Positions 9,422 to 62,781 of a DNA stretch of 64,000 nt are shown here, piece by piece. Position numbers and translations under genes: made by a program. Within the stretch, counting starts at the first letter, position 1; every line of letters begins with the position of its first letter. The stretch is from positions 1 through 64,000 of the forward strand of contig NZ_JAQTNN010000002.1 in the NCBI RefSeq assembly GCF_028713855.1. The letters are read 5' to 3'. This DNA comes from Sulfuricurvum sp. GTDB lineage: Bacteria > Campylobacterota > Campylobacteria > Campylobacterales > Sulfurimonadaceae. The notes under the pieces are model-generated. The model was not told the DNA's origin. It was given only the letters and a program-made list of their open reading frames with translations, and ran no database searches.

Positions 9422-11497
9422 ATGGTTATCGACAGCGTTTGTACCTATTGCGGCGTGGGATGCGATATTTCCGCTGAGGTTGAGGATAATAAAATCCAAA
9501 AGATCTTCGCAAAAGAAGAGGGAACCGTCTCTCAAGGGCGGCTTTGTATCAAGGGGAAGCAGGGGTGGGATTTTGTAACCCATTCCAAACGGCTTCGTAA
9601 TGCCCGTGTTCGAAAATCATTTTTAGCTAAAAATGCCGCACTGTTTGCTGATCTGGACATGGATTATCTCGAACCGGTGGATCACGATTTTTACGAGATC
9701 AGCTATGAGAGTGCGTATGAACTCGTTGCCCGTAAACTCCGAGCCATTACCGATGAACACGGCGCGCACAGTTTTGCAGCGATTGGTGGAGCCAGAACCA
9801 GCTGTGAGGGATCATACCTTTTCCAACACTTTACTCGCCACGTGGTCGGTTCTCCGCATGTCGATAACTGCGCCCGTGTTTGCCATTCTCCATCGCTGAA
9901 GGGGATGCGTACGACGATCGGCGAGGGGGCGATGACCAATCCGTTTGATGATATCTACGAAACAGAGTATATGGTGGTGATGGGTTCCAACACGACCGAA
10001 GGGCACCCGATCGTTGCCAACCGTATGCTCGATGTGATTAAACAAAAAGATATTGAGCTTGCCGTGTTAGACGTGCGCCGTATCCAGCTCTCCAAATCAG
10101 CAACAAATCATCTAAGCATCCCGTACGAAGCCAATCTGATGATCCTGAACATGATGGCCTACGTTATCCTTTCTGAAAATTTGGTCAATACAGATTTTGT
10201 GAACAGCCGTACCAAAGGGTATGAGGAGTACAAAAATTCTATTCTCAACGATCCGTATGCCAACCCTGAATATCTTCTCAAAATTCCGGGGTATGAGTCG
10301 TTAATTGAGGAGATTCGCACCGTTGCCCGTAAATATGCAACCCGTAAAAGTCTTTTTTTCTGGGGATTAGGAATCACTGAACATCTTGATGGGTCGTATG
10401 CCGTAATGGCGATTACCCATTTGGCAATGTTGACCGGAAATATCGGTAAGCGCGGAGCGGGGTTAATGCCGCTTCGGGGACAGAATAACGTTCAAGGGAC
10501 ATGTGATGTCGGGATGCTGCCGTATTATGCTCCTGATTATCAGCCACCGAAAGAAGTGGGGATGATGACCCCTGATTTAATCAATGCGATGGTTGATGGG
10601 AAAATAAAGGCGCTTTACAATATCAGCGAAGATATCGCCCATATCCATCCGAACCAAAATAAAATTCACGCGGCTTTGGGAAATCTCGATCTTTTGGTTG
10701 TCAATGAACTCTTTGATAATGAGATTACCAAATTTGCCGACATTATTTTCGGAGTCAAAAGTGCGTATGAGAAGACGGGTGTCTATATTAATGCGGAACG
10801 CCGCCTCCATCTCTCTCAGCCTCTGATCAATGTTATGATGCCCGATGACTGGGAAGTGATTGCGGAGATATCTAAACGCTACGGAACCGATCTCGGATTT
10901 AAAACCACTCGGGATGTTTGGGAAGCGGTACGTATCGACGCTCCTATCCGTTTCGGCGGCGCGAGTTATGAAAAACTGGAAGCAAACCGCTTACGCGGGT
11001 TACAATGGCCGGTTCAGGAAGAGGATATGCCGGTACTGCATATCGATACCTTCCGAACGAAAGATGGATTCGGCACCTTTCATTATCATCAGTATGTTCC
11101 GCGTGGTCAAGTCGAAGAACTGCTCAATGCTAAAACGCATGAAGGATATTATCTCACGACCGGACGGGTGTTGGTTCATTACAATAACAGTGCCCAAACC
11201 AATGCCTGTGAGAAACTCAACCGCAGTCACAGTGAAGATACGCTGTTAGTCAGTGTTGATGATGAAGATTTCTTCGAGTACAAAGACTTTGTCGTACTCA
11301 AAAGCGAATACGGGCAAAGTGCCCCTTTGCGCGTAAAAGTGAGCTCTACGGTCAAAAAAGGGACCCTTTTTACGACCTTCCACCATGCTAAGAGCCAAAT
11401 CAACTTTTTATTCGGTGACGAGTCCGACGAGTTGATTAAAACGGCACGGTTTAAATCGATCAAAGTCGAGGTGATTAAACCCGACTATCTGGATTAA
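9422..11497 (+). CDS. Formate dehydrogenase-like molybdopterin oxidoreductase (Cys type), stand-alone
   Basis: 691 residues aligned over its whole length with the FdhF/FdhA catalytic subunit. The N-terminal 4Fe-4S motif CTYCGVGC...GRLCIKG is complete. The molybdenum or tungsten ligand is a cysteine: TGC codes residue 154 in the context NCARVCHSP, where selenocysteine occurs in many FDHs. The RGQNNVQGTCDMG-like segment (here RGQNNVQGTCDVG) is the typical FDH phrase. No Tat signal is present, so it is cytoplasmic. No electron-transfer or chaperone subunits are adjacent; the next gene is yraN, 5 bases on. The partner and direction (formate oxidation or CO2 reduction) cannot be told from the sequence. 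Confidence 0.82.
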   Translation: MVIDSVCTYCGVGCDISAEVEDNKIQKIFAKEEGTVSQGRLCIKGKQGWDFVTHSKRLRNARVRKSFLAKNAALFADLDMDYLEPVDHDFYEISYESAYELVARKLRAITDEHGAHSFAAIGGARTSCEGSYLFQHFTRHVVGSPHVDNCARVCHSPSLKGMRTTIGEGAMTNPFDDIYETEYMVVMGSNTTEGHPIVANRMLDVIKQKDIELAVLDVRRIQLSKSATNHLSIPYEANLMILNMMAYVILSENLVNTDFVNSRTKGYEEYKNSILNDPYANPEYLLKIPGYESLIEEIRTVARKYATRKSLFFWGLGITEHLDGSYAVMAITHLAMLTGNIGKRGAGLMPLRGQNNVQGTCDVGMLPYYAPDYQPPKEVGMMTPDLINAMVDGKIKALYNISEDIAHIHPNQNKIHAALGNLDLLVVNELFDNEITKFADIIFGVKSAYEKTGVYINAERRLHLSQPLINVMMPDDWEVIAEISKRYGTDLGFKTTRDVWEAVRIDAPIRFGGASYEKLEANRLRGLQWPVQEEDMPVLHIDTFRTKDGFGTFHYHQYVPRGQVEELLNAKTHEGYYLTTGRVLVHYNNSAQTNACEKLNRSHSEDTLLVSVDDEDFFEYKDFVVLKSEYGQSAPLRVKVSSTVKKGTLFTTFHHAKSQINFLFGDESDELIKTARFKSIKVEVIKPDYLD

Positions 11498-51626: not shown

Positions 51627-52117
51627 ATTATCTCAAAGACGGCGGACTTCCCGTCGCATTGACAACTATCGACAAAGTGGTCAACTGGGGTCGATCGAAC
51701 TCAATCTGGGCATTGACATACGGTTTGGCATGCTGCGGTATCGAAATGATGGCTTCCGGGGCATCCCGCTATGACTTTGACCGTTTTGGTACGATCTTCC
51801 GTGCATCACCGCGTCAAGCAGAATTGATGGTTGTTGCGGGAACGTTGACGAAAAAACATGCGGAGTTTATTCGCCGTTTGTACGATCAAATGACGGAGCC
51901 TAAATGGGTTATCTCCATGGGTTCATGCGCAAACACCGGCGGTATGTTTAATACCTATGCTACGGTTCAGGGTGTGGATCGCGTTATTCCTGTCGATCTC
52001 TATCTTCCCGGCTGTGCACCGCGTCCTGAAACCTTGCAATATGCCGTATTGTTGTTACAACAAAAAATTCGTAAAGAGAGTGCATCACGCGCTCAAAAAC
52101 CAAAAAGGTTGATGTAA
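51608..52117 (+). CDS. nuoB: NADH-quinone oxidoreductase subunit B
   Basis: 169 residues from the ATG at 51608, within the end of nuoA. The N2 cluster ligands are visible: adjacent cysteines in [11 protein letters not shown], then [10 protein letters not shown] and [10 protein letters not shown]2 is the last cluster before quinone. The stop shares a base with the nuoC start (TAATG). Confidence 0.97.
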
Positions 52118-52923
52118 TGAGAGCTTACACCCCTAAAGACGATGTACAGAAAAAACCTTACTATACCGATCGCTATTGGGTTGCCCCTCAAGTAGCGAAA
52201 AGTGATGTCAGCGAGGATGCTGTATTTGCCGCTGATCTTGAAGCGATTAAAGCCAAATTTGATGTATTGGATGCGTATATCCAAGTGGGTCAAATGGTGG
52301 TCGTTATCAATGCTGTAGATAACTTCAGCGTTATTGAGATGATGAAAAATGTTCTTGCATACAATCAACTCTCCGAGATGTCTGCGATTGACTGGTTGGC
52401 AAGCGAGGGAAAATTTGAGATTTTCTACCAAATGCTCAGTATGTCCAAGCGTAAACGTGTTCGCATAAAATGCAAAATCGGCGAAAAAGAGTCGATCCAA
52501 AGCGTTGAAAAATTGTTCCGTTCAGCTGACTGGTCGGAGCGTGAAATGTATGATATGTTTGGTGTAGTAGTGAACAACCATCCATTTATGAAACGTATCT
52601 TGATGCCGGACGATTGGGAAGGATTCCCTCTGCGTAAAACTTATCCGCTTCAAGGGGATGAGTTTGCTCAATGGTATGAGGTAGATAAAATCTTCGGTAA
52701 AGAGGCACGTGAGATTATTGGGCCTGAAAACCGTGATCCGGCACGAATAGACCGATACGATACCGAACGTTTTGCCCGTTTGGGACATGAAGTACCGCAT
52801 GGTACCGATATTTCTCAAGGCGAACCGGATACTCCGTTATGTTACCAAGAGAATGATGGAGTCTTCATGATCGAAAAATTTGACGCAGAGAAGAGTGTCG
52901 TGATCTCTGATCGCCACCGTTAA
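52117..52923 (+). CDS. nuoC: NADH-quinone oxidoreductase subunit C
   Basis: 268 residues, the 30-kDa subunit of the peripheral arm, separate from NuoD as in most bacteria outside enterobacteria. The signature [39 protein letters not shown] is complete. The N-terminus is somewhat longer than average, and a C-terminal tail of about 70 residues follows the signature. 9 bases before nuoD. Confidence 0.96.
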
Positions 52924-52932
52924 GGATCACAT

Positions 52933-54159
52933 ATGCAACAAGCCAATAGACTAAGACCTTTTTTCGAAAATATTACCTTTGACCGTGACGACAATGAGTT
53001 GATCCTAAACTTCGGTCCTCAGCATCCATCGGCGCACGGACAGCTTCGTTTGATGCTTCATTTGCAGCAAGAACAGATTACGAAAGCGCATCCGGATATC
53101 GGATATCTCCACCGTGGTATGGAAAAAATGGCGGAGAACATGATCTATAATGAGTTCATGCCGACAACCGACCGTATGGACTATATCGCTTCAAGTTCGA
53201 ACAATTATGGATTTGCATTAGCAGTTGAAAAACTCATCGGTCTTGATGTTCCGCGCCGTGCGAAAGTGATCCGCATGATGCTTCTTGAGACCAACCGTCT
53301 TATGTCCCACCTTTTCTGGTTGGCGACGACGGCTCTGGATATCGGAGCAATGACGGTGTTCTTGTTTGCGTTTCGTGAGCGTGAGTATTTGATGGACTTG
53401 ATCGAGGATTACTGCGGTGCACGTTTGACCCATGCGGCGATTCGTATCGGCGGTGTTCCTCTCGATCTACCGGACAATTTCATTGCTGATTTACGTAAAT
53501 TCCTCGATAAATTACCGGAGAATATCAAAGACTACGAAGACCTTCTCGATACCAACCGTATTTGGTTAATGCGTATGGAAAATGTTGGGGTTATTTCTAC
53601 CGAGATGGCTTTGAGCTGGGGATGTTCAGGGGTAATGCTACGTGCATCCGGAGTGGAATGGGATATTCGTAAAGAAGAGCCGTATGAGCTTTACGATGAA
53701 GTGGACTTCAATGTTCCTGTTTCCGACAAAGGGGACAACTATGCCCGTTACAAACTTTACATGGCAGAGATGCGTGAATCAGCAAAAATCTTGTACCAAG
53801 TAATCGACATGTATGAGGGGACTGAACCTGCATTGATGGCACATGCACCGCAATACATTTCGGCACCTAAAATCGACATTATGACTCAAAACTACTCGTT
53901 GATGCAGCATTTCGTCCTTGTGACCCAAGGGATGCGTCCTCCGGTAGGAGAAGTGTATATCGCGACCGAATCGCCTAAAGGAGAACTTGGGTTTTACATC
54001 AACTCCCAAGGAGGAGCTTATCCGTACCGTCTTAAACTCCGTGCGCCGTCGTTCTGGCATACCGGAATTTTGACCGACTTATTACCGGGGCACTACATTC
54101 CGGACGTTGTATCTATCATCGGGACGACCAATATCGTCTTCGGTGAAGTAGACCGCTAA
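52933..54159 (+). CDS. nuoD: NADH-quinone oxidoreductase subunit D
   Basis: 408 residues, the 49-kDa subunit that forms the quinone site with Nuo[15 protein letters not shown] carries the conserved His and further signatures [28 protein letters not shown] and [15 protein letters not shown] are present. Related to the large subunit of NiFe hydrogenases but without the metal-binding cysteines. Confidence 0.97.
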
Positions 54160-54171
54160 AAGGAGCATGCA

Positions 54172-54396
54172 GTGAAACGTTACGACTTACGTCATTTAAA
54201 AGAAAATTTTGCAGATCGCATGTCCGTCATCATCAAAGAAGAAGCAACACCGGGTGAAGTGTTGATCTTTTTGTTTGAAATCGGTGATTTTACCCCGATC
54301 CAACAATCGGCTGATTTGGTTAAAGAGCTTGGGTGTGAACTCATGAATTCGTTGAAATTCAACGAAGCTGACTGGACCATCGTGGTCAAGAAATAA
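54172..54396 (+). CDS. 74-residue protein in the nuoE position, without cluster cysteines
   Basis: 74 residues, GTG start with an AGGAG site. True NuoE is about 160 residues with four cysteines binding 2Fe-2S cluster N1a. This protein has a single cysteine, and the text TPGEVLIFLFEIGDF...SADLVKELGCELMNSLKF resembles the small NuoE-position protein of Campylobacter (about 75 residues). It is thus probably an assembly or structural partner for the protein that follows, not an electron carrier. Confidence 0.7.
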   Translation: MKRYDLRHLKENFADRMSVIIKEEATPGEVLIFLFEIGDFTPIQQSADLVKELGCELMNSLKFNEADWTIVVKK

Positions 54397-54405
54397 GGAA
54401 CCGCT

Positions 54406-56403
54406 GTGAGTAAAGTCTATTTCTCCACGTGGCGGGGTGAGCAAATCAACAACATCGGCAAAAATGACGATGCTTGGGAAAATTCTGCTTACAACCTCCC
54501 GTTGGAATACAACGAGCATGCCCATTCCAAAGCATTTATCGGCTGGGATGGCGTAGCGCTTTTTAATCCGGATGTTGATGTGGTTCGTTTAGCGACGGAA
54601 TATGCAGCACAATATCAGGTTTACTCCGAAGCGTGCGGACGCTGTGCACCGGGACGATGGGGCGGACGTATTTTGTACGATTTGCTTGATAAAATCGCTC
54701 GCGGTGAGGGTGCGGTATCGGATATGGAGCATCTCAAAGAGGTATCTCGCACAATGCAGGAGACTTCCAAATGTGAGATTGGTAAAACGGTTCCAAACCC
54801 GTTATTGGATCTGATGACTCACTTCGAGTCAGAGTTCATGGCGTGTATCGAGAACCAAAAACCTTCCAAGCATTACCATATGGAAGATACCAATTACATT
54901 GCAAAAATCACCGCACCGTGTATGGATGCCTGTCCGGCGCATGTCGATATACCGGCATACATTGAGGGTGTAAGAGATTTGCGTTTTGATGATTCATTGA
55001 TGGCAACCCGTCAGACGATGCCACTTGCACATACCTGCGGACGTGTTTGTCCTCACCCGTGCGAAACCGAATGTCGTCGTACTAACCTCGATGAGCCGAT
55101 TTCGATCATGGAACTCAAACGTTTGGGTGCCGATTATGAGACCGATCACGGTTTCGGATTCTTCCACCCGAGTGAGAAAAAAGCCTCTATCGGTAAAAAA
55201 GTAGCGGTAATCGGTGCGGGCCCTGCAGGCCTTACCGGTGCTTATTATTTGGCATTGGATGGTATTGATGTTGATGTGTATGAAGAACTGCCGGTTCTCG
55301 GTGGCGAAGTAGCGGTCGGTGTACCTGAATACCGAATGCCGATTGATAAATACAATCAAGACATTGAAGCGGTTCGTTCTCTTGGGGTAAACTTTATCAC
55401 AAACACAAAAGTGACTGCGGATATGATGCGTCAGTTCGAAAACGATTATGACGCTACATTGGTAGCTACGGGTACTCGTATTTCGAAAAAAGTCTATTGT
55501 GATAATGAACGCAAAGAGATTGCTGGATATTGGGGCGCGATCGATATGCTCGATGAAGTGAATTTGTTTGTGAAATACGGAATCGGACAAGATTTGGATC
55601 TTACCGGCAAAACTGTTGTTTGTGTCGGTGGCGGATTTACCTCGATGGACGTTGTACGCTGTTCAATCCGTGCCAATGCGGCAAAAGTTATTATGCTTTA
55701 TCGCCGTGATGAGAAAACGATTATCAAAAACACGACCTACGAAGAGTATCATGAAGCGGTCGAAGAGGGAGTTGAATTTATTTTCCATTCTGCTGTCGCG
55801 CGTATGAACGATGAGAATGATGTTCTCAAATCGCTCACCGTGGATCGTTACGAACTGGTTCCTGATCCAAACGGCGGACGTCCGACTTTAGAGAAAATCG
55901 AAGGGGCTTCGTTTGACATTGAGTGTGATTTTCTAATTCCTGCGGTATCTCAAAGTGCTGATTTGAAGCTGATCCCTGAAGAATGGGAAGTTGAGCGTAC
56001 GTCATGGGCGACGATTAAAACCAACGGTAAAGACTACATGACCTCTCGCAAAGGGATCTTTGCGGCAGGTGACTGTGAATACGGGCCGATGACAATTGTT
56101 AACGCCGTAGGTCAGGCAAAACGTGCAGCATCGGTGATGTCACGCTATGTCGTAAACGGTGAAATCACCTTAACCGATGATGAGATTATGGAAGATCACC
56201 TCCGTAAACTCAAAGTCTATGATAAAAAAGAGAAAATCGTCGGATGGCTTCCGGGCTTGCCGCGCCAACACAGTGAAGTGCTTACTGTTGATGAACGCAA
56301 AGACAATAACCGTGAAGTTAAATACGGCTTTACGCAAGAAGAGGCACTTGCGGAAGCGGAACGCTGTATGCGCTGTTACTACATCGCGATGGTAGCACAC
56401 TAA
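54406..56403 (+). CDS. NuoF-like 4Fe-4S domain fused to a GltD-like FAD/NAD(P) oxidoreductase
   Basis: 665 residues, GTG start with AAGGAA. Residues 1-150 hold only the C-terminal domain of NuoF (N3 cluster): EACGRCAPGR at 76-85 and SKCEIGKTVPNPLL at 121-134. The usual third cysteine of ESCGxCxPC is Gly83. The FMN/NADH domain and SLBB of NuoF are missing. Residues 165-665 look like glutamate synthase small subunit: Cys172, 176, 211, 215, 219 and 223, FAD motif VIGAGPAGLTG (269-278), a second Rossmann CVGGGFTSMDVVR, GIFAAGDCEYG, and a C-terminal CMRC pair (654, 657). Likely the electron-input subunit of this complex I with FAD replacing FMN. Confidence 0.85.
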   Translation: MSKVYFSTWRGEQINNIGKNDDAWENSAYNLPLEYNEHAHSKAFIGWDGVALFNPDVDVVRLATEYAAQYQVYSEACGRCAPGRWGGRILYDLLDKIARGEGAVSDMEHLKEVSRTMQETSKCEIGKTVPNPLLDLMTHFESEFMACIENQKPSKHYHMEDTNYIAKITAPCMDACPAHVDIPAYIEGVRDLRFDDSLMATRQTMPLAHTCGRVCPHPCETECRRTNLDEPISIMELKRLGADYETDHGFGFFHPSEKKASIGKKVAVIGAGPAGLTGAYYLALDGIDVDVYEELPVLGGEVAVGVPEYRMPIDKYNQDIEAVRSLGVNFITNTKVTADMMRQFENDYDATLVATGTRISKKVYCDNERKEIAGYWGAIDMLDEVNLFVKYGIGQDLDLTGKTVVCVGGGFTSMDVVRCSIRANAAKVIMLYRRDEKTIIKNTTYEEYHEAVEEGVEFIFHSAVARMNDENDVLKSLTVDRYELVPDPNGGRPTLEKIEGASFDIECDFLIPAVSQSADLKLIPEEWEVERTSWATIKTNGKDYMTSRKGIFAAGDCEYGPMTIVNAVGQAKRAASVMSRYVVNGEITLTDDEIMEDHLRKLKVYDKKEKIVGWLPGLPRQHSEVLTVDERKDNNREVKYGFTQEEALAEAERCMRCYYIAMVAH

Positions 56404-56413
56404 GGAGGGATGG

Positions 56414-58669
56414 ATGATCAATTTTACGATTAACGGCCAGCCCGTCATAGCTTCAAAAGGGGAAACAATCCTCCAAGCAGCACGCAAAGCGGGATTCTAT
56501 ATCCCGACGATGTGTTATTTGGAAAAAACAACCCCGTGTGCGTCATGCCGTTTGTGCGTGGTTGAAACGGACAAAACGGACGGATTGATTCTCAGCTGTC
56601 AAACTCCTCCGACGGAAGGTTTGGGTGTTACGATTAATTCGGAGCGCCTTGAGCAAGAACGGACAAATATTATGCGTCTTTACGATGTCAACCATCCGTT
56701 GGAATGCGGCGTGTGTGATAAATCAGGGGCTTGCGATCTTCAAAACAAAACGTTGGAATTTGGTGTCTCCGCACAGCATTTCAGCGCCAAAGAGCATCAC
56801 CGCACGATCGAGCATTGGGGTCTAATCAATTATGATCCATCACTATGTATTTTGTGTGAAAAATGTGTTCACGTCTGTAACGAAATTATCGGTGACGATG
56901 CGATTGAACTTCAATTCGGAGGATATAAATCAGCAGTTATTCCTAAAAACAGTGAGGTTCTTGATTGTACGTTCTGCGGTGAGTGTATTGCCGTATGTCC
57001 GGTCGGTGCATTGGTCAGTTCAGAGTTCCAATACAGTGCCAACGCGTGGGAACTTACCCAAATCCCTGCGACGTGTGCTCACTGTTCAGCGGGATGTTCA
57101 TTGACCTACGAAGTGCGTCACACTTCAAACTCAATCGGTGCAAAAGCGAAGATTTATCGCGTAACGAATAATTTCGAACATACCACTCTCTGCGGTGCGG
57201 GACGATTTGGATTTGATTTTGCAGTCGAGGGAACGAAAGACGAAGCCGAATTGGCAAAAGCGGTTCATGCGATTCAAAACGCGACGGCTATCCGTTTCAA
57301 TTCACTCATCACCAATGAAGAGGCGATGATTCTTCAAGGGCTCAAAGAGAAACTGGGGATTAAACTTTATAACGAAGAGGCACGTGCGTACCAAAGTTTT
57401 ATGGCTGCATACGCGTCTATCAGCGGAAAAACAGGATTCGGCGGAAGTTTGGACGCCATTGTGCAAAGTGACGGTATTATTGTTCTCGGAGGGCGTATCG
57501 TCACCGATAATCCGGCAGTTCGTTATGCGATGACTACAGCGGCTCGTCACCGAGGTGCAAAAGTGGTGTATATGCACCCGCTTGAAGATGAGTGGCTCAA
57601 AAATGTCGTTACCCAATTTGTTAAATACGAAGTGGGAACTGAAGAGGGTGTGATTGCTATGTTAGCAAAAACACTTCTCAGCGGCGCGGATATCTCTGAG
57701 GAAACAAAAACCTTTTTCGACGGACTTGATGAGGGGTATTTATGCGCCGAGAGCAATGTCGGGGATGAAGAATACACACACATCGCTAAATCATTCGCGC
57801 GTGCAAAACGTAAAACGCTGATTATCGGAAGCGATGTATTGAATCATGAACGCGCATCGAATATCGCACGTTTGTGTGCAATGATCGAAACGTATACCGA
57901 GTTTTCGATTGTTGTGGTAGCTGGGAGCGTCAATACTATCGGTATATCGCTCATTTGTGATCTTGATGTTGATACGTTCGGCGGAAACGTTGTCGGATAT
58001 AATGCGGCAGGCGATTATACGATGGGATCGATCGGTGATGTCATGTTGAAACTGCCGTCACTGAATTCTCAAGAGGGAACATTTGTTAGTATCAATCATC
58101 AGGTATTGCCGACCAATGTTGCGGTAGCTTTTGAGGGGTATACCCTTAACGACATTGCAAATGCTTTAGGGTTAGTGTCGCAACATACGATTGACTACAC
58201 CGAAAAACTTCCTGTTTCCAAAGGATTTAATGGAACTTCATTCGATAGTTTGGGGAACTTTTACGGGGCTCTTGGAGAAGATAACCGAGGTTATATTTTG
58301 GAAAACATTGACGTTGAAGCCAATGGTATTTTGGAAGAAGTTGAAGATTTGCCGGAATTTAACGGCACTGTTGTGTACCGCTGTAATCCTGTCAATCAGT
58401 TCAACGGTTATACGGCTCGTACCAAACAGCTTGAAAAAGAGGCAACATTGCGCGGTTCGGCACAGTTTGCTGCTGCTGCAAAAATCGGTGATGGTGATAA
58501 AATTCGAATTGAATTTCCTCAAGGCACTCAAGAACGAATTTTTGAACTCGACTCTACTTTAAAAGGGACAATTGCATTAGTTCCGGCATACGATGTCGGA
58601 TTCGGTGAATTGAATGAACAATATCGTTTTGAAAAGGTGAAAATTATGAGGATGGGGAGCGAATCATGA
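56414..58669 (+). CDS. nuoG: NADH-quinone oxidoreductase subunit G, first copy
   Basis: 751 residues. Ligands are complete: N1b 2Fe-2S at Cys34, 45, 48 and 62; N5 with His94, Cys98, 101, 107 (HPLECGVCDKSGAC); the two clusters N6-type with CILCEKCVHVC and CTFCGECIAVCP; and an N7-type group CAHCSAGC...LCGAGRFG. The rest is a molybdopterin-oxidoreductase-like fold without a cofactor. Extra Cys42 near N1b. Overlaps the second nuoG by 4 bases. Confidence 0.93.
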   Translation: MINFTINGQPVIASKGETILQAARKAGFYIPTMCYLEKTTPCASCRLCVVETDKTDGLILSCQTPPTEGLGVTINSERLEQERTNIMRLYDVNHPLECGVCDKSGACDLQNKTLEFGVSAQHFSAKEHHRTIEHWGLINYDPSLCILCEKCVHVCNEIIGDDAIELQFGGYKSAVIPKNSEVLDCTFCGECIAVCPVGALVSSEFQYSANAWELTQIPATCAHCSAGCSLTYEVRHTSNSIGAKAKIYRVTNNFEHTTLCGAGRFGFDFAVEGTKDEAELAKAVHAIQNATAIRFNSLITNEEAMILQGLKEKLGIKLYNEEARAYQSFMAAYASISGKTGFGGSLDAIVQSDGIIVLGGRIVTDNPAVRYAMTTAARHRGAKVVYMHPLEDEWLKNVVTQFVKYEVGTEEGVIAMLAKTLLSGADISEETKTFFDGLDEGYLCAESNVGDEEYTHIAKSFARAKRKTLIIGSDVLNHERASNIARLCAMIETYTEFSIVVVAGSVNTIGISLICDLDVDTFGGNVVGYNAAGDYTMGSIGDVMLKLPSLNSQEGTFVSINHQVLPTNVAVAFEGYTLNDIANALGLVSQHTIDYTEKLPVSKGFNGTSFDSLGNFYGALGEDNRGYILENIDVEANGILEEVEDLPEFNGTVVYRCNPVNQFNGYTARTKQLEKEATLRGSAQFAAAAKIGDGDKIRIEFPQGTQERIFELDSTLKGTIALVPAYDVGFGELNEQYRFEKVKIMRMGSES

Positions 58670-61152
58670 ATGAAATCACGATTACCATAGACGGCCGCAC
58701 TGTCCAGACGCAAGAGGGTGAATATATCCTGAATGCGGCACGGGCAAACGGGATATTTATCCCTGCGATTTGTTATTTGACACGATGTTCGCCGACATTG
58801 GCATGCCGTATCTGTCTTGTCGAAGCCGATGGTAAACAAGTTTATGCGTGTAATGCAAAAGCCAAAGCGGGAATGGATATTACCACTACGACACCGAATA
58901 TTGTGGCAGAGCGAAGAGCAATTATGGAAGTTTACGATGTAAACCATCCGTTAGAGTGCGGCGTATGTGACCAATCGGGTGAGTGTGAATTGCAAAACTA
59001 TACGCTAGAAGTGGGTGTAGATACGCAAACCTATTCGATCAAAGATACCCACAAGCCGGCACAAAACTGGGGATTGATCCATTACGATCCGGCATTGTGT
59101 ATTATGTGTGAGCGTTGTATCACTGTCTGTAAAGATATGATCGGAGATGCAGCACTCTCTACGGTTGCACGTGGATCAGATGCTATTGAGGCTGAATTCA
59201 AAGAATCTATGCCCAAAGACGCCTATGCGATGTGGAACAAACTCAACAAATCGTTGATTGCTCCAAACGGCGGAGATAAACTCGATTGTACCGACTGTGG
59301 TGAGTGCAGCTCCGTATGTCCGGTCGGTGCATTAGTCAGCAGTGATTATCAGTACACTTCCAACGCATGGGAACATAAACAAATCCCTGCAACGTGTGCA
59401 CACTGCTCGGCGGGATGCCAACTCAGTTACGATATCAAACACACCTCTATCGAAAATCCGGAGAGCAAAATCTACCGTGTCAAGAATGAGTGGAATTACG
59501 TTTCTCTCTGCGGTGCCGGACGTTACGGATATGATTTTGAAAATCGTGATGTTGTGAAAAATCCGGCTGCTTTTGATGCCGCGATTGCCGCATTCAAAAA
59601 AGCCGATACCATTGCATTCACCTCTACAATCACGAATGAAGAGGCTTTGATCCTTCAACGTTTGAAAGAGAAATACGGTTACCGTTTAGTGAATAACGAA
59701 GCATTGGCTCTCAAAAACTTTTTAAGCAGTTACAGTACTATTAGCGGGAAATCACTCTACGGCGGCGACTTGAAACAAGTTCATGAAGCCGATTTCGTTG
59801 TTTCAATCGGTAGTGCGCTTAAAACAGATAATCCGAATGCCCGTTTCGCGATGAACAACGCGTTATCGATGAACAAAGGGGCGGGGTTGTATTTCCATCC
59901 GATCAATGATCCTGTCATTGCGGATATGTCGAAAAATGTGACTCAATTCAACCATGCACCGATGATGGAAGAGGCGGCTCTTTATTTGATGCTCGATCTT
60001 TTCGGGGATAAAGCTGCTATGCCTTCAAGTGTTACAGAGTATTTGGCAACTTTTCACTCCACTAAAACAGTAACCATTGAAGAGACGGTCGATGAAAAAG
60101 TGACCGAAACCGTCGTCAAAAAAGTACTCAATGAAGAGACCGGGGTTGAAGAAGAAGTGAGCGAAGAGGTCACTAAAACGATTAAGAAAAAAGTTTCCAA
60201 AGAGGTCGAAGTGGATGAAAATGCACTCTTCGCTCTTTTAAATGCGCCGGTAGGATTTAGCGATACGCTCACTAAATATTTGGCGAAAAAAGAGAACTTC
60301 GCATTGATGGTAGGACCTGACCTCTATACCCATCCAAACACGGCTAACTGCGCACGATTGGTTGCCTTGATCGAAAAATACACTGCGTTTAGTGTCACGA
60401 TGATTCCGAATCTCTCGAACACTCTCGGTGTCGCGTTGATTTGTGATTTGGACAGTGAGCGAGGAAGTTACACAATCGGCTACAACACCGCGGGTGATTT
60501 TACCCTTAGTGCACTTGGGAATGGCGATTTGGATATGCCATCACTTAATCAGCAAGAGGGGACACTCACCGGTATCGATAAACGGGTGAATCCGACTAAT
60601 GCAGCCCTCAGTTACGGCGGATATATTCTTAATGATATTGCCTCTTCACTTGGCGTTACAGCGAAATTTACGGTGAACTATACAGCGCAGCTTCCGGTTG
60701 CGGCAGGATTCAAAGCGGTAGAATTTGATACCCTTCCGAATCACTACACCAACAGCGGGGAAGAGGTTCGCGGTTATTGCTTAGAAGCTCAAGCGATTGC
60801 GACGAACGGCGATGAAAGCGTTAAAGGATTTGATTCGAATGCGGCTATTACCGATAGCGTGGTCTATTTGGCAAATCCGGTTCTCCAATTTTCACCGTTT
60901 ACGGCAGCTTCCCATCAACTTCAAGAAAATGGAGGTCTTTATGTCTCTAAAATGTTTATGGAATCTAACGGATGGAACGAAGGGGATCATGTGCGCGTGA
61001 AAACGGCACGTGGCGAGCTGAGTGTCAACGTTATAACCGACGGTAAGATTGCAGGAGATATCCCTTATCTTCCGACGTTCGATACCGCTATCAACTCTGA
61101 AGCACTGTTTGACGGTTACCGTTTTACGTGCGTATCAATTCAAAAGGTGTAA
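58666..61152 (+). CDS. nuoG: NADH-quinone oxidoreductase subunit G, second copy
   Basis: 828 residues, ATGA overlap with the first nuoG. It keeps the full set: CYLTRCSPTLACRICLVE and a later YACNAKAK for N1b, HPLECGVCDQSGEC for N5, CIMCERCITVC, CTDCGECSSVCP, and CAHCSAGC...LCGAGRYG. It contains a charged insert at about 465-520, rich in Lys/Glu/Val/Thr (TVDEKVTETVVKK...), absent from copy 1, and an extra segment between the last two cluster motifs. Two different NuoG paralogs in one operon are unusual. Confidence 0.92.
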   Translation: MNEITITIDGRTVQTQEGEYILNAARANGIFIPAICYLTRCSPTLACRICLVEADGKQVYACNAKAKAGMDITTTTPNIVAERRAIMEVYDVNHPLECGVCDQSGECELQNYTLEVGVDTQTYSIKDTHKPAQNWGLIHYDPALCIMCERCITVCKDMIGDAALSTVARGSDAIEAEFKESMPKDAYAMWNKLNKSLIAPNGGDKLDCTDCGECSSVCPVGALVSSDYQYTSNAWEHKQIPATCAHCSAGCQLSYDIKHTSIENPESKIYRVKNEWNYVSLCGAGRYGYDFENRDVVKNPAAFDAAIAAFKKADTIAFTSTITNEEALILQRLKEKYGYRLVNNEALALKNFLSSYSTISGKSLYGGDLKQVHEADFVVSIGSALKTDNPNARFAMNNALSMNKGAGLYFHPINDPVIADMSKNVTQFNHAPMMEEAALYLMLDLFGDKAAMPSSVTEYLATFHSTKTVTIEETVDEKVTETVVKKVLNEETGVEEEVSEEVTKTIKKKVSKEVEVDENALFALLNAPVGFSDTLTKYLAKKENFALMVGPDLYTHPNTANCARLVALIEKYTAFSVTMIPNLSNTLGVALICDLDSERGSYTIGYNTAGDFTLSALGNGDLDMPSLNQQEGTLTGIDKRVNPTNAALSYGGYILNDIASSLGVTAKFTVNYTAQLPVAAGFKAVEFDTLPNHYTNSGEEVRGYCLEAQAIATNGDESVKGFDSNAAITDSVVYLANPVLQFSPFTAASHQLQENGGLYVSKMFMESNGWNEGDHVRVKTARGELSVNVITDGKIAGDIPYLPTFDTAINSEALFDGYRFTCVSIQKV

Positions 61153-61155
61153 AGC

Positions 61156-62145
61156 ATGGATGTAGCATTTATTATTGAGACGATTGCTAAAATCGTCGTC
61201 ATCTTATTAATCTTCTCAGCACTTGCGGGTCTCGGAACCTATTTCGAGCGTAAAGTGCTCGCGTTCATGCAACGACGACTTGGACCGATGCACGTCGGTC
61301 CTTTCGGATTGCTGCAAGTTGCGGCAGACGGGATCAAACTCTTCACCAAAGAGGATATTATCCCTCAAAACGTGGTTAAACCGATTTTTAAAATTGCTCC
61401 GGTTATTACAGCGGCAACAGCGTTTATGGCGGCAGCCGCAATTCCGTTTTGGCCTCAATTTACGGTTATGGGCTATACGGTGCACCCGATCGTAGCGGAT
61501 ATTAATGTTGGTATCCTTTACGTGCTTGGGGTTATGGCGATCGGATTGTACGGACCTCTTTTGGGCGGTATGGCATCTGCGAATAAATGGTCACTGATTT
61601 CAGCAGCGCGTAGTGCGGCTATTTTTATCTCTTACGAGGTAATTACGGGTCTTTCTTTGTTGGCACCGCTTATGATGGTGGGGTCATTGTCATTGGTCGA
61701 TATTAACAACTACCAAGTCGGTGGAATCACACACTGGATCGTATGGTCACAGCCGGTTGCATTTGTTCTTTTCTGGATTGCCGCATTTGCGGAGACAGGG
61801 CGTACCCCTTTCCACCTTGTAGCGAACGATCACGAAATCATTGACGGTTTCGGTACGGAATATTCGGGTATGCGCTGGGGTCTTTTCTTCATCGGTGAAT
61901 ATGCGAACATGTTCTTTATCTCGTTTGTAATCGCTATTGTTTTCTTGGGCGGTTTTGGTGACGGTACTTTTGCGGGAGCATTCCAATTGATCCTCAAAGT
62001 AGCGTTTTTCTTTTTCTTTTTCCTTTGGACACGTGCCGCATGGCCGGATGTCCGACCTGACCAATTGATGTGGTTGTGTTGGAAAGTTTTAATGCCGATT
62101 GCGGTGCTCAACGTGGTTGTCACCGGCATCGTGATGATGTTCTAA
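61156..62145 (+). CDS. nuoH: NADH-quinone oxidoreductase subunit H
   Basis: 329 residues with about eight membrane helices; ND1 homolog forming the quinone entry channel. LAFMQRRLGPMHVGPFGLLQVAADGIKLFTKEDIIP and the FAETGRTPFHLVANDHEIIDGFGTEYSGMR segment are the two family signatures. The second usually reads AETNRxPFDLxEaE; here it is TGRTPFHLVANDHE. Confidence 0.96.
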   Translation: MDVAFIIETIAKIVVILLIFSALAGLGTYFERKVLAFMQRRLGPMHVGPFGLLQVAADGIKLFTKEDIIPQNVVKPIFKIAPVITAATAFMAAAAIPFWPQFTVMGYTVHPIVADINVGILYVLGVMAIGLYGPLLGGMASANKWSLISAARSAAIFISYEVITGLSLLAPLMMVGSLSLVDINNYQVGGITHWIVWSQPVAFVLFWIAAFAETGRTPFHLVANDHEIIDGFGTEYSGMRWGLFFIGEYANMFFISFVIAIVFLGGFGDGTFAGAFQLILKVAFFFFFFLWTRAAWPDVRPDQLMWLCWKVLMPIAVLNVVVTGIVMMF

Positions 62146-62157
62146 GGAGGTTGTGCG

Positions 62158-62781
62158 ATGCATCATGAAGAAGTATTTACAGACCGAAACGTAAGTGAAC
62201 ATAGCGCTTATTATTACGTCGATATCGAAACCTATCCGACTACCGGATGGGATAAATTTAAACAGGCGCTCAAACGTGCCGTACGAGGCGAATTGTTTGT
62301 GGGCTTGTGGGTTGTTATGCGTGAGATGATCAAATTTGATATCCATACCGTTCAATACCCGAAAGAGAAACTCCCGATCGGTCCTCGCTACCGTGCGGTT
62401 CATAAACTGCTTCGTCTGTGGGAGTCGGGATATGAACGTTGTATTGGATGCGGATTGTGTGAAAAAATCTGTATCTCTGATTGTATCCGTATGGATACCC
62501 GTATCGATGAGAACAGCCGTAAAGAAGTTACCGAGTATAGTATCAATCTTGGGCGTTGTATCTTCTGCGGATATTGTGCGGAAGTGTGTCCGGAATTGGC
62601 TATCGTTCACGGTGGACGTTATGAAAACGGCTCTGAACAGCGTGCCCATTTCGTCATCAAAGATGACATGCTTACTCCGCTTGATCTTCTTAAAGCGGGT
62701 GAACAATCAGAGTACCCAGGCTTCGGAGCCATCATCCCAGGAAGCGACGCGTCGGTCAAAAAGACCCCGTTGGCGTATTAA
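62158..62781 (+). CDS. nuoI: NADH-quinone oxidoreductase subunit I
   Basis: 207 residues. Two 4Fe-4S motifs [15 protein letters not shown] and [17 protein letters not shown] bind N6a and N6b, linking NuoG to NuoB. An N-terminal extension of about 45 residues ([13 protein letters not shown]...) precedes the usual start. AGGAGG site before the ATG. Confidence 0.96.

Follow-up and report, generated by a model that had tools for sequence, protein, structure and literature searches.

A tandem pair of full-length NuoG subunits beside a fused flavoprotein in the complex I operon of Sulfuricurvum

Introduction

Canonical complex I, as in E. coli and Thermus, contains the NuoEFG subunits, with NuoE, the FMN/NADH domain of NuoF and a NuoG that carries clusters N1b, N4, N5 and N7. 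Campylobacter and Helicobacter have a flavodoxin-type complex I (epsilon-Nuo) with the subunits NuoX and NuoY (Cj1575c/Cj1574c, HP1264/HP1265). NuoY has been annotated as NuoF (PMC3561388) and described as a NuoF replacement (PMC6682613; PMC4178425), and Cj1574c, probably with Cj1575c, mediates transfer from FldA to Nuo (PMC4178425). Electron exchange of Nuo with flavodoxin or ferredoxin was reported in C. jejuni (PMC4178425) and has been proposed for Sulfurospirillum (PMC4585668). Another complex I variant, NUO-2 of Nitrospina gracilis (NuoF2/NuoG2), has an extra [4Fe-4S] cluster in NuoG and was proposed for reverse transport from quinol to ferredoxin (PMC3578206); a related proposal was made for the partial Nuo of Nautilia (PMC2628731). 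Finally, StnC of the StnABC/NfnABC enzymes (8oh5_C, 9bov_A, 9n5u_A) joins a GltD-like module for NADPH and FAD, which holds two [4Fe-4S] clusters, to an adjoining NuoG-like Fe-S domain. Electrons in Stn pass from NADPH to FAD, then through the two clusters of the GltD part to the NuoG-like clusters, and the lysine K170 sets StnC apart from the bifurcating NfnB (PMC10482914).

Here we analyse a complex I operon of Sulfuricurvum sp. in a stretch of 64,000 nucleotides (the window; contig NZ_JAQTNN010000002.1, positions 1 to 64,000). It encodes two NuoG subunits (G1 and G2) and a fused flavoprotein (F). The NuoG fold and clusters N1b, N4, N5 and N7 of the pair are those of canonical complex I; unlike the latter, the operon is without NuoE and without the NuoF FMN/NADH domain, has two NuoG and has an extra cluster, X, in both. 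With the Campylobacter and Helicobacter complex it shares operon order, NuoX and an orthologous G2; there, NuoY is probably a G1 remnant, and the complex, in which F is missing along with the Fe-S half of G1, would have the flavodoxin/ferredoxin port only. An extra [4Fe-4S] cluster in NuoG is common to Sulfuricurvum and Nitrospina NUO-2, but the latter has a single NuoG per complex, an input subunit derived from NuoF without FMN, and no GltD module (PMC3578206).

A complete nuo operon with two NuoG genes

The nuoA-N operon is complete and unbroken, in the order A, B, C, D, NuoX, F, G1, G2, H, I, J, K, L, M, N, and all of its nuo subunits except NuoG are single-copy. The part around the NuoG pair reads as follows.

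52117-54159, forward strand: nuoC and nuoD, single copies, the Q-module partners
54172-54396, forward strand: small subunit of 74 aa resembling NuoX, with a GTG start, orthologous to H. pylori HP1264 and C. jejuni Cj1575c
54406-56403, forward strand: F, fused flavoprotein of 665 aa, a NuoF N3 domain plus a GltD-like FAD/NAD(P)H domain
56414-58669, forward strand: NuoG1 (G1), 751 aa, ATG start, a full Fe-S wire plus a degenerate molybdopterin-type C-terminal domain
58666-61152, forward strand: NuoG2 (G2), 828 aa, ATG start
61156-62781, forward strand: nuoH and nuoI, single copies immediately 3' of nuoG2, followed without interruption by nuoJ-N

The initial annotation had described two full-length NuoG in tandem, 751 and 828 residues long and overlapping by 4 bases, and the open reading frames and family models confirm it. 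The overlap is the sequence ATGA at 58666-58669, and both proteins pass the curated cut-off of the NuoG model NCBIfam NF006305 (591 bits; G1 878.1, G2 1171.5), while both stay below the cut-off of the broader NuoG model TIGR01973. The tandem full-length pair is neither a chance occurrence nor an assembly artefact. NuoX matches the HP1264 structure (PDB 2lxr) over residues 1-74 (phmmer, E 1.4e-22) and is found in operons with and without F alike. Neither a thioredoxin-like NuoE nor the NuoF FMN/NADH domain was found in the operon with family models, Pfam and locus annotation, and a scan for promoters and terminators gave a number of sites not above that in shuffles. Elsewhere in the window, a molybdopterin oxidoreductase-like ORF (9428-10864; open frame 699 aa) matches TIGR01973 in its C-terminal part only.

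Cluster ligands and structure models of the two NuoG

Ligands for N1b, N5, two further 4Fe-4S clusters and N7 had been claimed for both ORFs, and alignment of the ligands bears this out, the two further clusters being N4 and X. In G1 they are C34, C45, C48 and C62 (N1b), H94, C98, C101 and C107 (N5), C145, C148, C151 and C195 (N4), C155, C185, C188 and C191 (X, [4Fe-4S]) and C221, C224, C228 and C260 (N7). The corresponding residues of G2 are C36, C47, C50 and C62 (N1b), H94, C98, C101 and C107 (N5), C145, C148, C151 and C218 (N4), C155, C208, C211 and C214 (X, [4Fe-4S]) and C244, C247, C251 and C282 (N7).

Across 59 G1 and 92 G2 sequences the N1b, N4 and N5 ligands are invariant, whereas X and N7 decay in opposite ways. 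Cluster X is retained in 91 of 92 G2 (the sole exception being locus L123) and lost from 6 of 59 G1; N7 is retained in 58 of 59 G1 (the sole exception being L110) and lost almost exclusively from G2 (27 of 92). The loci with a ligand-losing G1 are L143, L145, L148, L149, L151 and L110, and the 27 ligand-losing G2 rows include, for example, L096, L114 and L113. The N7 clusters of the two NuoG were also considered as the contact between their wires; this can be rejected, as G2 is without N7 in four loci that have F and G1 (L109, L110, L135 and L149).

G2 differs from G1 in a short insert between two of its cluster motifs:

59197-59256, forward strand: G2-specific lysine-rich insert (aa 178-197), between the N4 and X motifs

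Its residues K179, K184, D185 and K195 are present in 92/92 G2 and 0/59 G1. Because a lysine-rich surface beside X would suit an acidic partner, the insert is a candidate docking site for flavodoxin or ferredoxin. A second, long charged insert of G2 (window 60049-60222, aa 462-519) forms two long beta strands in the model (EEVEEEVTKTIKKK-like) and is occupied in 78% of G2 and 27% of G1 sequences.

The AlphaFold2 model of G1 (pLDDT 81.7, pTM 0.83) matches NuoG of complex I in Foldseek searches (7nz1_G, 3.3e-35; 4hea_3, 3.5e-31). The G2 model (pLDDT 75.3, pTM 0.74) matches 4hea_3 at 2.2e-26, with its Fe-S region weakly modelled. Both models also match NAD-dependent formate dehydrogenases.

The NuoG paralogs are old and both maintained

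We surveyed 298 genomes of the phylum and retrieved some 90 nuo loci spread over it, together with 80 named loci, mostly of Sulfuricurvum and Sulfurimonas, using the proteins of the window as annotation queries. Full-length G1 orthologs occur in many families of the 298-genome survey, and full-length G2 orthologs are likewise phylum-wide. In a tree inferred from the Fe-S half and rooted on FdhF, HydA and other NuoG, G1 and G2 together form one clade (100/99, starred) and G2 is a clade within the same tree (100/100, starred); a full-length tree without outgroup splits cleanly into G1 and G2 (100, starred). G1 comes out paraphyletic in the former, rooted tree, but not significantly so (AU p 0.35), and its monophyly is not rejected. 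On the phylum-wide G1 and G2 clades, the duplication is therefore older than the Nuo-bearing Campylobacterota sampled.

An origin of one copy from formate dehydrogenase or hydrogenase, which the initial annotation had named as grounds for dropping its reading, is ruled out by the position of G1 and G2 apart from FdhF and HydA and by model cut-offs: against the formate dehydrogenase model TIGR01591, G1 scores 29 bits (cut-off 666). Ratios of dN/dS are 0.06-0.08 for G1 and 0.04-0.07 for G2, values that are approximate because dS is saturated (>1), and by this measure both genes are under strong purifying selection. The earlier view of the pair as old paralogs, both maintained, is supported by the deep split, the phylum-wide orthologs and the selection on both.

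F joins an N3-like domain to a putative NADP(H) module of StnC type

F contains the Pfam domains NADH_4Fe-4S (73-146), Fer4_20 (169-248) and Pyr_redox_2 (264-571), which define two parts.

54622-54843, forward strand: N3-like domain of F (aa 73-146), with C77, C80 and C123 invariant and Gly83 in place of the third N3 cysteine
54898-56379, forward strand: GltD/StnC-like part of F, a putative NADP(H) module (aa 165-658), with the StnC-type residues K238 and R310 kept

The NuoF model TIGR01959 is covered by F at positions 291-409 only, and the FMN/NADH domain is absent; by these matches F is not a NuoF and retains its N3 domain only. The earlier label of a fused NuoF-like protein holds for that domain; the remainder resembles a module of the NADP(H) GltD/StnC type and not a NuoF NADH site. 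Even the N3 domain departs from the four-cysteine pattern of N3, since its third cysteine is glycine in 60/60 homologs (CGRCxPG). An N3-like cluster on three cysteines, and an electron step from it onward to G1 or G2, are accordingly uncertain.

The cysteines that provide ligands for two [4Fe-4S] clusters (172, 176, 211, 215, 219, 223, 654 and 657) are invariant in 60/60 homologs, as are K238, R310, R433 and R434. K238 corresponds to the lysine ligand K170 of StnC (60/60) and R310 to StnC R239, so that F and StnC share this ligand type. The best PDB matches of the GltD-like half of F fall on residues 101-567 of two StnC-type chains, 9bov_A and 8oh5_C; the continuation of these chains, a NuoG-like domain, matches G1. 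F and then G1 thus align in succession to both chains, as two separate genes, and from this alignment F plus G1 corresponds to StnC in two pieces. Mainly for that reason, F would exchange electrons with G1 and its substrate would be NADP(H). The settings differ: StnC is one soluble chain that feeds the bifurcating FMN module StnAB, whereas Sulfuricurvum has two proteins in a nuo operon, which is without such an FMN module and has a second NuoG following.

Full-length G1 is tied to F, and F-less operons keep a G1 remnant

Among 94 Campylobacterota loci, full-length G1 occurs with F in 59/59, and the 35/35 loci without F have a protein of 215-351 aa between NuoX and G2. None of the 94 is discordant; three further loci are cut by contig ends. 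G2 was present in every Campylobacterota nuo operon that was read through its position and is never lost. The unusual peripheral arm that the initial annotation had tied to the fused protein is supported by the joint occurrence of F and full-length G1.

The short protein corresponds to the C-terminal half of G1 (approximately residues 345-515 and 640-750) without the Fe-S half.

56414-57238, forward strand: Fe-S half of G1 (aa 1-275: N1b, N5, N4, X and N7), absent from NuoY
57446-57958, forward strand: G1 aa 345-515, first block retained in NuoY, with the signature E406, D439, G441, E446 and E453
58331-58663, forward strand: G1 aa 640-750, second block retained, from the NuoY alignment

In hhalign comparisons the NuoY profile matches G1 (probability 100, E 1e-62) and G2 (E 1.8e-26), and residues E406, D439, G441, E446 and E453 are conserved in G1 and NuoY and not in G2. 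By these profile and residue matches, the NuoY-type short protein is a remnant of the G1 C-terminal half. Its operon position, length and NuoX (HP1264) neighbour indicate that it is probably NuoY itself, that is, Cj1574c/HP1265. Members of the phylum with a single NuoG thus carry, as judged from their sequences, a stump of G1, which was absent from the initial annotation.

A nuoBCDHI tree implies 8 switches in the presence of F, at least 7 of them on starred branches, and the state of G1 changes with that of F in 7/7 independent pairs (sign test p 0.0156). NuoY of Helicobacteraceae-type genomes (family f2) groups with G1 of the same family (99, starred). A single origin of NuoY is not rejected (AU test p 0.20), and G1 may have been trimmed to NuoY repeatedly.

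Several loci deviate in other ways. One genome (G208, family f4) has two NuoY-type nuo loci, L129 and L170, one of which is placed by the nuo tree among family f10, through contamination or transfer. In genomes of family f5 no NuoG match reached E ≤ 1e-30; a locus of one of them (L173, genome G004) has NuoB, a fused NuoCD, H and I only and resembles the Nuo of Nautilia, which lacks nuoEFGK (PMC2628731). In a genome of 2,110,355 bp, NuoG2 is divided into two overlapping ORFs of 309 and 537 aa (L132:7281-9651), and the break coincides with a homopolymer of about nine C, either a slippage-prone tract or an assembly error. We take this genome to be Wolinella succinogenes; Sulfurovum NBC37-1, Nitratiruptor and Wolinella are presumably the names that belong to three of the loci.

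A probable two-port complex and its alternatives

These observations are probably best explained by one complex I with two NuoG in two positions and two electron ports, in which F and G1 form a plugged-in NADP(H) module. This corresponds to the option of two input modules on one complex in the initial annotation, which fits best of those proposed, since full-length G1 and F are always either both present or both absent (59/59 and 35/35) and G2 is constant. G2 would occupy the usual place of NuoG, docked on NuoI and NuoC/D, because it is in every nuo operon read through there; its N1b-N4-N5 wire would lead to NuoI, and its cluster X beside the lysine-rich insert would be the likely port at which flavodoxin or ferredoxin docks. 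G1 would lie in the same particle as a second wire, from F (with its NADP(H) site, FAD, two [4Fe-4S] clusters and N3-like site) to G2, and a serial transfer from G1 to G2 is compatible with the data. The C-terminal half of G1 would act as a fixed adaptor that the complex still needs once F and the wire are gone: upon loss of F the Fe-S half of G1 would be lost too, and the C-terminal half would stay as NuoY (Cj1574c/HP1265). As for the direction of electron flow, quinol could drive the reduction of ferredoxin or flavodoxin and of NADP+ for CO2 fixation in Sulfuricurvum and relatives, or the flow could be the reverse.

Alternatively, G1 and G2 could compete for the same place on NuoI in two versions of the complex, G1 with F serving NADP(H) and G2 serving flavodoxin or ferredoxin, much as the initial annotation had suggested two versions with different donors. 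The complete N1b-N4-N5 wire in each NuoG and the single copies of the remaining nuo subunits agree with such an exchange, but we regard it as unlikely. It fits worse with the F-less genomes, in which the G1 C-terminal half adjoins G2 in 35/35 loci, an odd outcome for a mere substitute, and with the translational overlap of the two genes; moreover Cj1574c, taken here to be the G1 remnant, has been reported to function in a complex with a single NuoG, of G2 type (PMC4178425). It is also improbable that F and G1 form a separate soluble NADP(H):ferredoxin/flavodoxin oxidoreductase resembling StnC, which merely shares the operon and feeds the complex via a mobile carrier. The closest solved relatives are indeed subunits of soluble transhydrogenases, in which a single chain unites GltD and NuoG domains (PMC10482914); against this, the operon is without the NuoE/NuoF-type FMN module that Stn has, and nuo operons that have lost F still encode the C-terminal part of G1, which argues for a structural role in the complex. 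These two are the best rivals, and neither explains why the C-terminal half of G1 has persisted. A recent duplication, or mere gene dosage with no division of labour, is scarcely credible given the deep and phylum-wide split of G1 and G2 (100, starred, in the full-length tree), the different decay of X and N7 in the two proteins and the strict linkage of G1 to F.

The two-port complex can be extended, more tentatively and with rather less than even confidence, to a three-way junction, in which the proton motive force drives quinol oxidation with reduction of both NADP+ (at F-G1) and ferredoxin or flavodoxin (at G2), or in which the two are coupled by con- or bifurcation. Such a complex could be the main generator of low-potential reductant in rTCA autotrophs among the Campylobacterota, and the flavodoxin-type complex I of the pathogens its pruned descendant. 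Chemolithoautotrophic Campylobacterota derive both NADPH and low-potential ferredoxin from donors of high potential, and for this bioenergetic problem the operon provides a candidate machine with named parts. NuoY, commonly labelled NuoF and regarded as unrelated, would gain an origin as the stump of a second NuoG, and the Campylobacter and Helicobacter complex I would, if this is true, be a reduced form of a two-port ancestor. In the papers searched, we found no description of two NuoG in Campylobacterota.

Association with ATP-citrate lyase

ATP-citrate lyase was found in 38 of 47 genomes with F (9 without) and in 2 of 33 genomes with NuoY (31 without). As a candidate driver of the distribution of F, rTCA metabolism was rejected: the raw association is strong and not independent of ancestry (6 independent pairs, approximately 2 of them informative). 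F is kept without ATP-citrate lyase in three lineages, one of them presumably of Wolinella type. The two family f10 genomes G061 and G195 combine a NuoY-type Nuo with ATP-citrate lyase (E approximately 1e-81) and possess a second Nuo-like locus that encodes a NuoCD fusion; they bear on the source of NADPH without F.
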